The notes beneath the pieces are model-generated. The model saw only the letters and a list, made by a program, of their open reading frames with translations. It was not told where the DNA came from and ran no database searches. A stretch of DNA of 56,773 bases, taken from Verrucomicrobiia bacterium (GTDB lineage: Bacteria; Verrucomicrobiota; Verrucomicrobiia; Limisphaerales; UBA8199). The stretch's first letter is position 1, and every line of letters begins with the position of its first letter. Location of the stretch: positions 1 through 56,773 of the forward strand of contig DASYZB010000037.1 in assembly GCA_035946615.1 (NCBI GenBank), written 5' to 3'. Of this stretch, positions 22,520 through 27,667 are shown piece after piece. A program made the position numbers and the translations under genes.

Positions 22520-24023
22520 TCAACGGAAAAGGGTGGGATCGAGCCAGAGGGCCCAATTGCAGCCGTTGCTGGCCCCGGAGTTTTCAACCAGGAGTTGCAG
22601 TTTTCTGACGCCCGTGAGGTCTATGTCGTAGCGGGGGTGTTGTGAACCGCGTATAGCGGGGGACCGGAATACCTCCTTGCCGTCGGTTTTGATGACGAAA
22701 ACGACTCCCCAGGCCTCGCCTTGGAAGGCTGTGTGGAGTCCGGCTTCGCCGCGCAAGCTCTTCCATTTACCTGCGAGGTTATAAACATAACGGGATGGGG
22801 AATGAGCGAACAGGCCCGTGGCATAGACTTTCCCAGAGTCCAACAAGGGCGATTCAACCTGGTCGCACAGGGGGATGCGATTGGCAGCCGGTTGGAGCCA
22901 GCCTACCTCGGCCAGTCGCGGCCGGGCATCACCCAAGGGCAGTTGGGCAACTTCAGGCGGGACATCCGCCGGAGTCGGTTTGGGTTCGTTTTCCAAGGTC
23001 GCCACCAGATTTCGGGCGACGGTTTTTTCCAAGGAGGTGGCGTTGCTTTGCTCGAGGTTAGCGATGGCTTTGCGCGCGGCGCCGAGATCTTCCTGGAGCA
23101 CGGTCAGGAGCAGGGGTGCCAGAGCCGGCGTCTTTGCGAGCCTCGGGTCGGGGAGCGGGCCGGTAGATTGGCGCAGGAGATACACCGCGTTCTTTGGGAA
23201 ATCCAGGGTGACCAGGTGGCGGGCAAGGAAGCGGAGACCAATGCCGTCTGACTCCACGTCGATCCTTGGCAACGAAACGAGGGGGTACTTTTCACCGGCG
23301 AACAGGCCGTTGGGGAAGCGCGCTGTACCGGTGACCGGCGCAACAGTCCTATTGGTCCATTGATCAAAGTATTTTGGCATGAGCCATCCGTCACTCAGGA
23401 ACCCGCTGTCGATGAGCGAATGCGGACCTTGCTCGCCGAAGAGATTTTGCGCCACTGCCGGACGAGGGTCGCGGGAGTTAAGGGGAACGATCGGGAAGGC
23501 CTTGCCCCACTTTTGTTTGCCGGTCAGTGCGTCGTCCAGAAAGTGGATTTTGCCGGCGTTGAAATCGAGTTGGATGCAGTACTGGCGCAGGCAATCAATG
23601 CCGAGCATGCCCATGGTGGCGCCCGGCGAGCGAGCCCCACTGCTGGCAATCATCCGTTAAGATGCCAGGTGAGGACAATCTTAACGGAACGCCTCCTAAG
23701 TAGAGTTTTGGCGCGGCATAAACGTTGACCTTTTTTTTGTGGCCCCAGGATTGAAAGGTCGCCGTGTCGATGGGGTTTCCCAGTTTTGGCTCCAAGGATT
23801 TGTCCAGGAAGGTTGACGACGTTCCGGTATCCACGAAAAATGGCAACTCCTCTCCGCTCTCCAAGCGGACTGACACGACCAGAGGGCCTCCGCGACCGGC
23901 TTCCGGATTGATAGGCACATCAGCAGGGAGAGGGGAAGCGACAACGCTCTGAGATGTTCGAGCACATAGAACAACCAGGCACAACAACACGCCAAGGGCG
24001 CTCGTTTTGAACATCAGGCACAT
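22520..24023 (-). pseudogene. Retropepsin-like aspartic protease with C-terminal NPCBM domain, split by frameshift
   Basis: Two overlapping frames read as one gene. The first (24023 to 23595) has a signal peptide and FFVDTGTSSTFLD, the catalytic Asp motif of retropepsin-like proteases. The second (23653 to 22520) continues the fold with MGMLGIDCLRQYCIQLDF and ends in an NPCBM carbohydrate-binding domain (YATGLFAHSPSRYVYNLAGK ... RKLQLLVENSGAS). The join lies between about 23615 and 23655. One extra base in the run of four C at 23635-23638 (G on the coding strand) would restore a single frame reading DDCQQWARSPGATMGMLG. If the indel is real, the protease is broken; if it is a sequencing error, this is one intact gene of ~500 residues. 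Confidence 0.75.
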
Positions 24024-24102: not shown

Positions 24103-26421
24103 ATGGCGGGCATGTTAAGTGTTGTTCGCGGCGTTTGGATCGCACCGCTCCTGTTTCTCAGTTTAGCTTTTGACGTTTCTGGCGAGAGCGATCAACCCAT
24201 TTATACCGATTCACTGCAAAACGGATGGCAGAATTGGGGTTGGACCAGCATCAATTACGGCAACACGACCGTGGTCCATTCCGGCGCCTTATCGATCAGC
24301 GTCACCATCACCAATGGGTGGCAGGCCATTTACATAGCCCATGCGGCGTTTGATTCCAGCCCCTACGCGAGCCTGAAATTCTGGATGAACGGCGGGGCTG
24401 CCGGCGGACAACAACTCCAAATCCAGGGACACGCGGGCGGCGTATCGCAAACGGCTGTTGCCCTCACTCCGCCTGTGGCCAATACCTGGACGCTCTACAC
24501 GGTTTCTCTGGCATCCATCGGAGTGGCCAACCGGCCAGATATGGACGGTTTTTGGATTCAAGGCGTGAACACAAGCCAACCGACTTTTTACCTGGACGAC
24601 ATCACGCTGATGGCGGGGTCCAATGCCCCGCCGGCCACCAACACACCCGTAGCCATTTTCGTGGATGCGCGGCTGAACCGCCACCCCATCAGCCTATTGA
24701 TTTACGGCGTGGCTTTTGCAGGCTCAGCCAGCCAATTGAGCGACCTGAATTGCCCCGTGCACCGCTCCGGTGGGAACAGCGAGACGCGCTACAATTGGGC
24801 GCTCAATGCGCATAACCATGCGGCGGACTGGTATTTCGAAAGCATCGACGACGGGAGCGCCACGCCGGCGGCGACGGCCGACAGCTTCGTGGCGACAAGC
24901 AAGAGCGGCGGGGCCGAACCGATGCTGACCATCCCGATGATCGGCTGGGCGCCCAAGCTCGGGCCGAATCGAGGCAAGCTGGCCAGCTACTCGATTGCCA
25001 AATACGGGCCGCAGACAGGCAACGATGGGCAATGGATGCCCGATGCCGGCAATGGCATCAGCTCAACCAACGGCAACAAACCCATAACCTGGAACGATCC
25101 GAATGACGCGAATTTCGCGACTAATTCCGCCTTTCAACGGGCCTTTGTCGAGCATCTGACCAATCGCTTGGGCTTTTCTACCAATGGTGGCGTGCGCTAT
25201 TACCTCATGGACAACGAGCACAGCCTGTGACAATCGACCCACCAGGATATTCACGCGGTCGGGGCCACGATGCAGGAGATACGCGACAAGTTTTTCGACT
25301 ACGCGGGCATGGTCAAGGCCCTCGATCCCAACGCGCTGGTTTGCGCGCCTGAAGAGTGGGGCTGGTCCGGTTATTTGTACAGCGGCTACGACCAGCAATA
25401 TGGCGGCCAACATGGCTGGGGCTACCTGCCGGACCGCGCGGACAACGGCGGCTGGGATTATTGTCCGTGGCTGCTCAACCAGTTTTATCAGCGGGCAACC
25501 AATACAAACCAGCGGCTCCTGGACTTTTTCACGCTCCATTGCTACCCGCAAGGCGGGGAGTCAGGCGATGACATCTCGACCTCGACGCAATTGCTGCGCA
25601 ACCGCTCGACGCGCCAACTCTGGGATACCAACTATATCGATGCGAGTTGGATCAACAACGTGGTCATGCTGATTCCGCGCATGAAAAACTGGGTCGCTAC
25701 TTATTACCCGGGCACAAAGATCGGCATTACCGAATACAACTGGGGCGCCGAGGCCAACATCAACGGCGCGACCGTGCAGGCCGATATCCTGGGCATATTC
25801 GGGCGCGAAGGCCTGGACCTAGCCACGCGCTGGACAACCCCGGATCCGAGCACGCCTACTTACAAAGCGATGAAGCTGTTTCGCAACTACGACGGCGCCG
25901 ACTCAGGTTTTGGGGATGCCAGTGTCAATGCCACCGGACCCAACCCGGACAACGTCTCGACCTTTGCGGCGTTGCGTTCTTCGGATGGCGCCCTGACCGT
26001 GATGGTCATCAACAAGCAACTGACCGCCGCCGCCACAGCCGCTGTCGGTGTCACCAATTACCCGCTGGCCGGCAGCGGGCAGGTGTGGCAGTTGACTGCC
26101 GCCAACACCATCGCCCGGCTGAGCGACTTGAGCTTTGGCGGCTCGACCTTTACCAGCACTGTCCCGCCACAGAGCGTCACTCTTTTTGTTTTGCCGCCCG
26201 GCACAACGCCCCCGCCCCGGCTGCGCGCGGGCACCCTCAGCCAGACCAACACGTTCGACCTCTGGCTGGACGGAACCGCCGGGCAGCGGTACATCCTGCT
26301 TTCCTCGACCGACCTCAGGACATGGCTGCCTGTGCTGACCAATTTGCTGGCAGACAGTTCCTGGCACATCGTGTTGCCCGCAATCAACCGGAGTTTCTAT
26401 CGAGCCCAGTGGGCCCCCTGA
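24103..26421 (+). pseudogene. GH44-like glycoside hydrolase interrupted by an in-frame TGA
   Basis: A single frame of 772 codons has one stop, TGA at 25228-25230. Upstream lie a signal peptide, a ~160-residue beta-sandwich that resembles a carbohydrate-binding module, and the start of a family-44-like (endoglucanase/mannanase) barrel ending YYLMDNEHSL, with the probable acid/base Glu372. Downstream, the frame resumes as QSTHQDIHAVG and runs through PEEWGWSGYLYSGYDQQYG and GITEYNWGAE (nucleophile Glu544) to a C-terminal FYRAQWAP module shared with other exported proteins here. Relatives have Trp at the stop position (DNExxxWxSTH), so one TGG to TGA change is enough. The rest is undamaged. Possible causes: a recent nonsense mutation, a consensus error, or readthrough (TGA followed by C, a leaky context). 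Confidence 0.85.
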
Positions 26422-26469: not shown

Positions 26470-26870
26470 CTAGTGTGGGCGGATAACATAGTTCCATTCG
26501 CCATGGAAACGCGACGTCGTGATGTTAATGGTAGCCATCTCTTCCTCAGTTATTTTTCGTCCGGCGGTATAACTACGGCGGTTCAGGCGGCAAGCGACCT
26601 TCAAACCTTTGGCGGTAGTGGTGCTCGCTATTGAGCGCACGATCGTTTCATAGTCCCGCAACGGTTCGCCGCGCCAGTTGGAACTGATGAACGAGAATAA
26701 TCGATGTTCCACTTTGTTCCACTTGCTGGTGCCTGGAGGAAAGTGGCATACCGCAACCGAAAGACCTGTCTGATCGGCAAAGCGCTGGAGCTCCCATTTC
26801 CACAGCCGTAGACGATAACCATTACTGCCGCCGCCAGATTCGCAGTAGCTTGGGCTATCGTGCAAGGGGC
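26470..26870 (-). pseudogene. ISAzo13-type transposase, C-terminal remnant
   Basis: The readable part has GGGSNGYRLRLWKWELQRFA, VCHFPPGTSKWNKVEHRLFS and RFHGEWNYVIRPH, which match the C-terminal third of ISAzo13-type DDE transposases. The N-terminal two thirds, including the first catalytic Asp, are missing, and the open frame upstream of ~26870 loses similarity and runs into the DUF72 gene's start. No terminal inverted repeats or target duplications could be identified. It sits 48 bp beyond the end of the broken GH44-like gene and so is a plausible agent or bystander of local decay. Confidence 0.8.
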
Positions 26871-26944
26871 GGGCCTTTTCCCCATACCATAGGTTTAAGC
26901 CCGCGCTATGTTCGCTCAGGCAACAGCGCTTGTCGCCATTTCTC

Positions 26945-27667
26945 ATGGAACACATCTTTATCGGGACCAGCGGCTGGTCGTATAAGAGCTGGGAAAAACA
27001 TTTCTATCCGGCAGATGTTCCCAAGGCCCGCCATTTCGAGTTCTACACCACCCAGTTCCGGACCGTTGAAATCAATCTGACCTTCTACCGCCTGCCCACG
27101 CTGAACATGGCGCGAGGCTGGCGCGACAAGGCGCCGCCCGGCTTCGTGTATGCCATCAAAGGCAGCCGGTTCATTACCCATATGAAAAAACTCATGAACC
27201 TTGGACTCGGGTTGGGCAGATTTTTCAGCCGCCTTCGCCCGCTCGAAAAGCGTATCGGGGTCATTTTGTGGCAGTTGCCCCCTGTGCTGCGCAAGGATGG
27301 GCCGCGGCTTGGGAGATTCCTCAAGCGCCTGCCTGAGCGCTATGAGCACGCGGTCGAGTTTCGTCATCCCTCGTGGCTGGATGACGAAATCTTTTCGTTG
27401 CTCGAGCAGCGCCGGGTCGCGCATGTCTCGGTCAGTTCTCTGGGTATGCCGCCCAATTTCACTGTCACCTCGGGTGTGGTGTATATCCGGTTTCACGGGC
27501 TCGAAGGCGGCGCCGCCCACGATTACACTCGCGATGAATTAAAACCATGGGCCGGCCATATCCGGCAACAGGCGCGCCGCGGAAAAAAGGTGTTCGTCTA
27601 TTTCAATAACGACGCGAATGTCCGCGCTCCCGGTAACGCGAAATTGCTGATAGAAATGACCGCCTGA
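26945..27667 (+). CDS. DUF72 (YecE-like) domain protein
   Basis: From the ATG at 26945 this is a 240-residue protein with the DUF72 pattern: FIGTSGWSYKSWEKHFYP at the start, then FRTVEINLTFYRLP, AIKGSRFITHMKK, LWQLPP, a FRHPSW motif and YVYF-type ending VFVYFNNDANVRAPGN. The fold is a TIM-like barrel; function is unknown, and homologues are widely spread in bacteria and archaea. The open frame from 26930 adds five residues and is not needed. Its stop TGA directly abuts the stop of the convergent ligA gene with no base between. Confidence 0.9.
   Translation: MEHIFIGTSGWSYKSWEKHFYPADVPKARHFEFYTTQFRTVEINLTFYRLPTLNMARGWRDKAPPGFVYAIKGSRFITHMKKLMNLGLGLGRFFSRLRPLEKRIGVILWQLPPVLRKDGPRLGRFLKRLPERYEHAVEFRHPSWLDDEIFSLLEQRRVAHVSVSSLGMPPNFTVTSGVVYIRFHGLEGGAAHDYTRDELKPWAGHIRQQARRGKKVFVYFNNDANVRAPGNAKLLIEMTA

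Follow-up and report, generated by a model that had tools for sequence, protein, structure and literature searches.

The GH44 locus and its neighbours

The window analysed here is a stretch of 56,773 nucleotides from an uncultured, Limisphaerales-like (Verrucomicrobiota) bacterium, and its features of interest are collected in Table 1. A frame opened by the ATG at 24103 on the forward strand meets an in-frame TGA at codon 376 and then stays open, with no second internal stop, as far as the TGA at 26419-26421; with codon 376 taken as Trp, the product has 772 aa. Read in this way, it matches the Pfam family Glyco_hydro_44 (PF12891) over residues 236-483 (E 4e-61, 207 bits against a cut-off of 25.1 bits), so that profile positions 1-222 of 223 are recovered over the catalytic domain and the match spans codon 376. 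The cellulases 3ii1 and 3fw6 of the PDB match residues 179-701 (E about 1e-220) and have W at the position of codon 376, and residues 31-168 match the small endoglucanase domain 7t7y. Because homology is unbroken across the stop, two open reading frames adjacent by chance are excluded.

Table 1. Features at the glycoside hydrolase family 44 (GH44) locus, in window coordinates
Feature	Position	Strand	Evidence and remarks
Aspartyl protease gene, C-terminal part with NPCBM, in another frame than the N-terminal part	22520..23617	-	NPCBM E 4e-24
Same gene, N-terminal part, divergent, broken by frameshift	23619..24014	-	Asp_protease_2 E 3e-5; tblastn with the 515-aa ortholog L066
N-terminal GH44 fragment, 375 aa	24103..25230	+	Signal-peptide-like start, N-terminal carbohydrate-binding-like domain, first half of catalytic domain
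Glu372 codon, presumed acid/base	25216..25218	+	Position located; role from GH44 knowledge
Premature TGA, codon 376	25228..25230	+	TGG in 23/23 aligned relatives
Downstream frame, intact: second half of GH44 (to about residue 701) and C-terminal module (702-772)	25231..26418	+	
Glu544 codon, presumed nucleophile, absent from the truncated product	25732..25734	+	Role from GH44 knowledge
Truncated ISAzo13-type transposase, C-terminal fragment	26470..26955	-	Profile positions 189-308 of 308 only

Inspection by eye suggests that the product begins with a signal peptide. Glu372, in the motif DNEHSL that runs into the stop, lies four residues ahead of it, and Glu544, in the motif ITEYNW, lies beyond it; from knowledge of the GH44 family, we take the former (DNE motif) to be the acid/base catalyst and the latter to be the nucleophile. 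With one residue before codon 376 and the other after it, no uninterrupted product contains both. The C-terminal module of about 70 residues (26206-26418) has weakly similar matches in several other proteins of the same genome (contigs C83, C94, C12, and C105) and may serve these proteins in common for anchoring or sorting.

The genes on both sides of the GH44 gene are also damaged. Upstream, the aspartyl protease/NPCBM gene (22520-24014) switches frame at 23617/23619, with no overlap between its two parts, as traced by tblastn with the ortholog L066, and its ortholog in genome G012 is an open frame of 515 aa with 72% identity to the C-terminal part. This frameshift is absent from an earlier interpretation of the same DNA made from its letters alone (hereafter the sequence-only reading). 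Of the type to which the transposase on the other side belongs, the genome has no full copy, its six matches being partial and two of these lying at contig ends. Pfam-matched genes in the remaining window look complete, and the three adjacent damaged features could reflect either genuine decay of this region or poor resolution of the assembly there. Proteins encoded next to the GH44 gene gave no tblastn matches at the GH44 loci of relatives, which places the gene outside any fixed gene cluster.

The stop position in relatives and selection downstream of it

A GH44 match was found in 36 of the 146 genomes drawn from the same family and order, and none of these 36 carries an in-frame stop in it. 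At codon 376, TGG stands in each of the 23 relatives whose sequences align there. The closest of them (L042, 68% identical) reads AGC CTC TGG CAA TCA where the window reads AGC CTG TGA CAA TCG. The scan of genome contigs returned no near-identical record, the closest showing 68-71% protein identity, and the relatives compared include none of the same genus. Those relatives that carry names are metagenome assemblies assigned to Limisphaerales or Verrucomicrobia subdivision 3, to which the bacterium of the window therefore probably belongs. The lesion is thus missing from every functional relative compared (23/23 TGG), as is expected of a nonsense pseudogene. The sequence-only reading had described an in-frame TGA at a conserved Trp of a GH44-like glycosidase, a Trp at this spot in relatives, and an intact frame past the TGA that includes Glu544 and a C-terminal module, and all of this is borne out by the profile match across the stop, the TGG codons of the relatives, and the frame that stays open to 26419-26421.

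The part of the gene beyond the stop bears no trace of relaxed selection, since none of the three comparisons made (invariant columns, branch counts, and dN/dS) revealed an excess of changes. At the 62 post-stop columns invariant in all other sequences, the window protein has 0 private changes, the relatives having 0 to 7; when one exception is allowed, the columns number 99 and the window protein has a single change (P385A), against 0 to 11 in the relatives. Branch-specific changes at columns conserved in outgroups number 8 in the window and 17 in the closest relative after the stop, and 6 and 12, respectively, before it. Before the stop as well as after it, pairwise dN/dS lies at 0.02-0.07, values that are rough because synonymous sites are near saturation. 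In a long-dead gene, decay at conserved post-stop positions would be expected; as these positions are unchanged, the stop is either very young or not real, and unrelaxed selection is expected either way, whether the lesion is recent or the base is wrong. The downstream conservation predates the stop and does not count as evidence for readthrough.

UGA decoding in the genome

The decoding machinery of the genome is ordinary. RF2 is present (471.6 bits against a curated cut-off of 370), and more of the long ORFs in the window end in TGA (29 of 54) than in any other stop codon, in a mechanical count of ORFs of at least 200 aa that may include spurious ones. The tRNA-Trp carries the anticodon CCA; read by eye, its sequence retains A9 and G24 and has an anticodon stem of five pairs, topped by a G-U wobble. 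This tRNA is 100% identical to those of several relatives, which either have TGG in the GH44 gene or lack the gene. In a search of the genome for a suppressor tRNA, the only close match to tRNA-Trp was the normal one, a second match reaching 79% at a different place.

Three large protein families of the genome were sampled for internal stops (52 ABC, 31 MFS, and 57 GFO/IDH/MocA matches), and none of these approximately 140 matches contains a true one. Two MFS matches had been flagged as containing stops; their DNA shows intact genes, the alignments having overrun the gene ends. The check proposed by the sequence-only reading, that other genes of the genome might carry TGA at conserved Trp positions, therefore turned up no such case in these families. 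Together with RF2 and the CCA anticodon, this is not the picture of a code in which UGA means Trp.

The Rfam tRNA-Sec model has a match above its cut-off (53.5 against 47 bits; L049 1498-1587, on contig C53 of the same genome), which ARAGORN identifies as a tRNA-Ser with the anticodon TGA, and we rejected it as a selenocysteine tRNA. A tRNA-Ser that passes the tRNA-Sec cut-off is a trap when selenocysteine machinery is called. For SelB, nothing in the assembly, which is 96.07% complete, exceeds the cut-off, and the best match, which adjoins tRNA-Trp and tRNA-Thr, is probably EF-Tu. The pair of tRNA-Sec and SelB that a selenoprotein demands was accordingly not recovered. The RNA from the stop onwards (25228-25300, 73 bases) is predicted to fold less stably than its shuffles (z = +1.2), and the stimulatory structure typical of programmed readthrough is therefore not seen in this segment.

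Origin of the stop and comparison with known systems

The best reading of the locus is, in our view, a recent nonsense mutation in the GH44 gene, at a decaying or strain-variable spot, to which we assign a probability of roughly 0.64. A GH44 gene of the endoglucanase/xyloglucanase type, coding for an enzyme that degrades plant cell walls, would very recently have taken up one nonsense change, in the codon of a conserved Trp. Translation would then end at residue 375, past the acid/base Glu but leaving the second half-barrel and the nucleophile Glu544 untranslated, and the downstream frame would persist through too little time for decay. Because Glu372 precedes the stop and Glu544 follows it, the 375-residue protein should be inactive, save for a trace of activity from basal misreading of UGA. 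We infer that the TGA base is real and that GH44 activity has been lost. The fresh frameshift in the adjacent gene and the IS remnant on the other side count in favor of a recent mutation; against it stands the compatibility of the same evidence with a consensus error in what appears to be a metagenome-assembled genome.

Such an error is the main rival, although a clearly less probable one: the TGA and the neighboring frameshift would have been introduced in consensus calling or assembly, or would represent a minor variant in a mixed population, and the gene of the organism would be intact. The assembly, of 161 contigs and 96.07% completeness, is probably metagenome-derived, and it shows two fresh-looking lesions inside 1.7 kb, yet no true internal stop in the sampled families; the perfect conservation downstream of the GH44 stop also suits this explanation. 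A substitution in unique, non-repetitive coding DNA is, however, atypical of short-read errors, and the adjoining IS remnant suggests real local turnover.

The fresh nonsense mutation that the sequence-only reading named among its options holds up, but its other option, readthrough as a serious possibility, found no support. Regulated or adaptive reading of UGA as Trp, by which one gene would give two products, could appeal to the conserved Trp at the site, Trp being the usual insertion at a leaky UGA, to the clean and conserved downstream frame, and to the study of Belinky et al. (2021; PMC7918605), in which many bacterial genes with an in-frame stop have dN/dS below 1. Programmed readthrough would nevertheless be expected to leave a stop conserved in orthologs with constraint downstream, and this stop is found in one genome, unshared by relatives, sharing being the criterion of that study. 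The RNA beyond the stop is predicted to be less structured than its shuffles, the tRNA-Trp, identical in relatives, is devoid of known UGA-reading features, and the truncated product ends within the catalytic domain rather than at a domain border. Recent origin fully accounts for the intact downstream half, and we consider it very improbable that a natural, tuned readthrough holds a secreted GH44 enzyme of this lineage down to trace amounts of the full-length form. Low-level basal leakage may occur and would be nothing special; a leaky UGA could in this way yield some full-length enzyme.

Two further explanations are more improbable still. Recoding of UGA as selenocysteine, or its reassignment to Trp throughout the genome, draws on the tRNA-Sec model match, which is undone by the tRNA-Ser call, by the sub-threshold SelB match, by the presence of RF2 and the frequent use of UGA as a stop, and by the 28 TGG codons found elsewhere in the GH44 gene itself. 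It is just as hard to credit that two half-barrels are translated separately by re-initiation past the stop: the stop does divide the catalytic domain at roughly its midpoint, and 14 codons downstream there is an ATG (25270), but a separate C-terminal half would lack a signal peptide, inspection by eye shows no obvious ribosome-binding site ahead of 25270, and none of the relatives has a split GH44.

Automated annotation would give a truncated GH44 protein of 375 aa at this locus, and this strain's enzyme is best regarded as probably inactive. The case illustrates cleanly that a frame which stays open and conserved past a stop, when known from one genome, does not amount to evidence of readthrough; its importance beyond annotation is small.

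Among the closest known systems is the GH44 family itself (3ii1/3fw6; Paenibacillus Cel44C, 2yih/2ykk; the clostridial Cel44A type, 2e0p), which the product resembles over the full domain (residues 179-701) and in both Glu motifs, whereas the aligned relatives are free of the premature TGA that replaces the Trp after the acid/base motif. The system in which UGA is read as Trp by an unusual tRNA-Trp, with a 4-bp anticodon stem and A9C or G24A (PMC13092985), shares with the window a UGA at a Trp position, in contrast to the A9, G24, and five stem pairs of the tRNA in this genome and its relatives. Recent single-lesion pseudogenes and in-frame stop polymorphisms (PMC7918605) are similar in having a single stop, an otherwise intact gene, and low dN/dS; that study demands a stop common to two or more species, whereas the window stop occurs in a single genome. 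Most such stops do not outlast the time scale of population polymorphism (PMC7918605), and the stop in the GH44 gene fits this short-lived kind.
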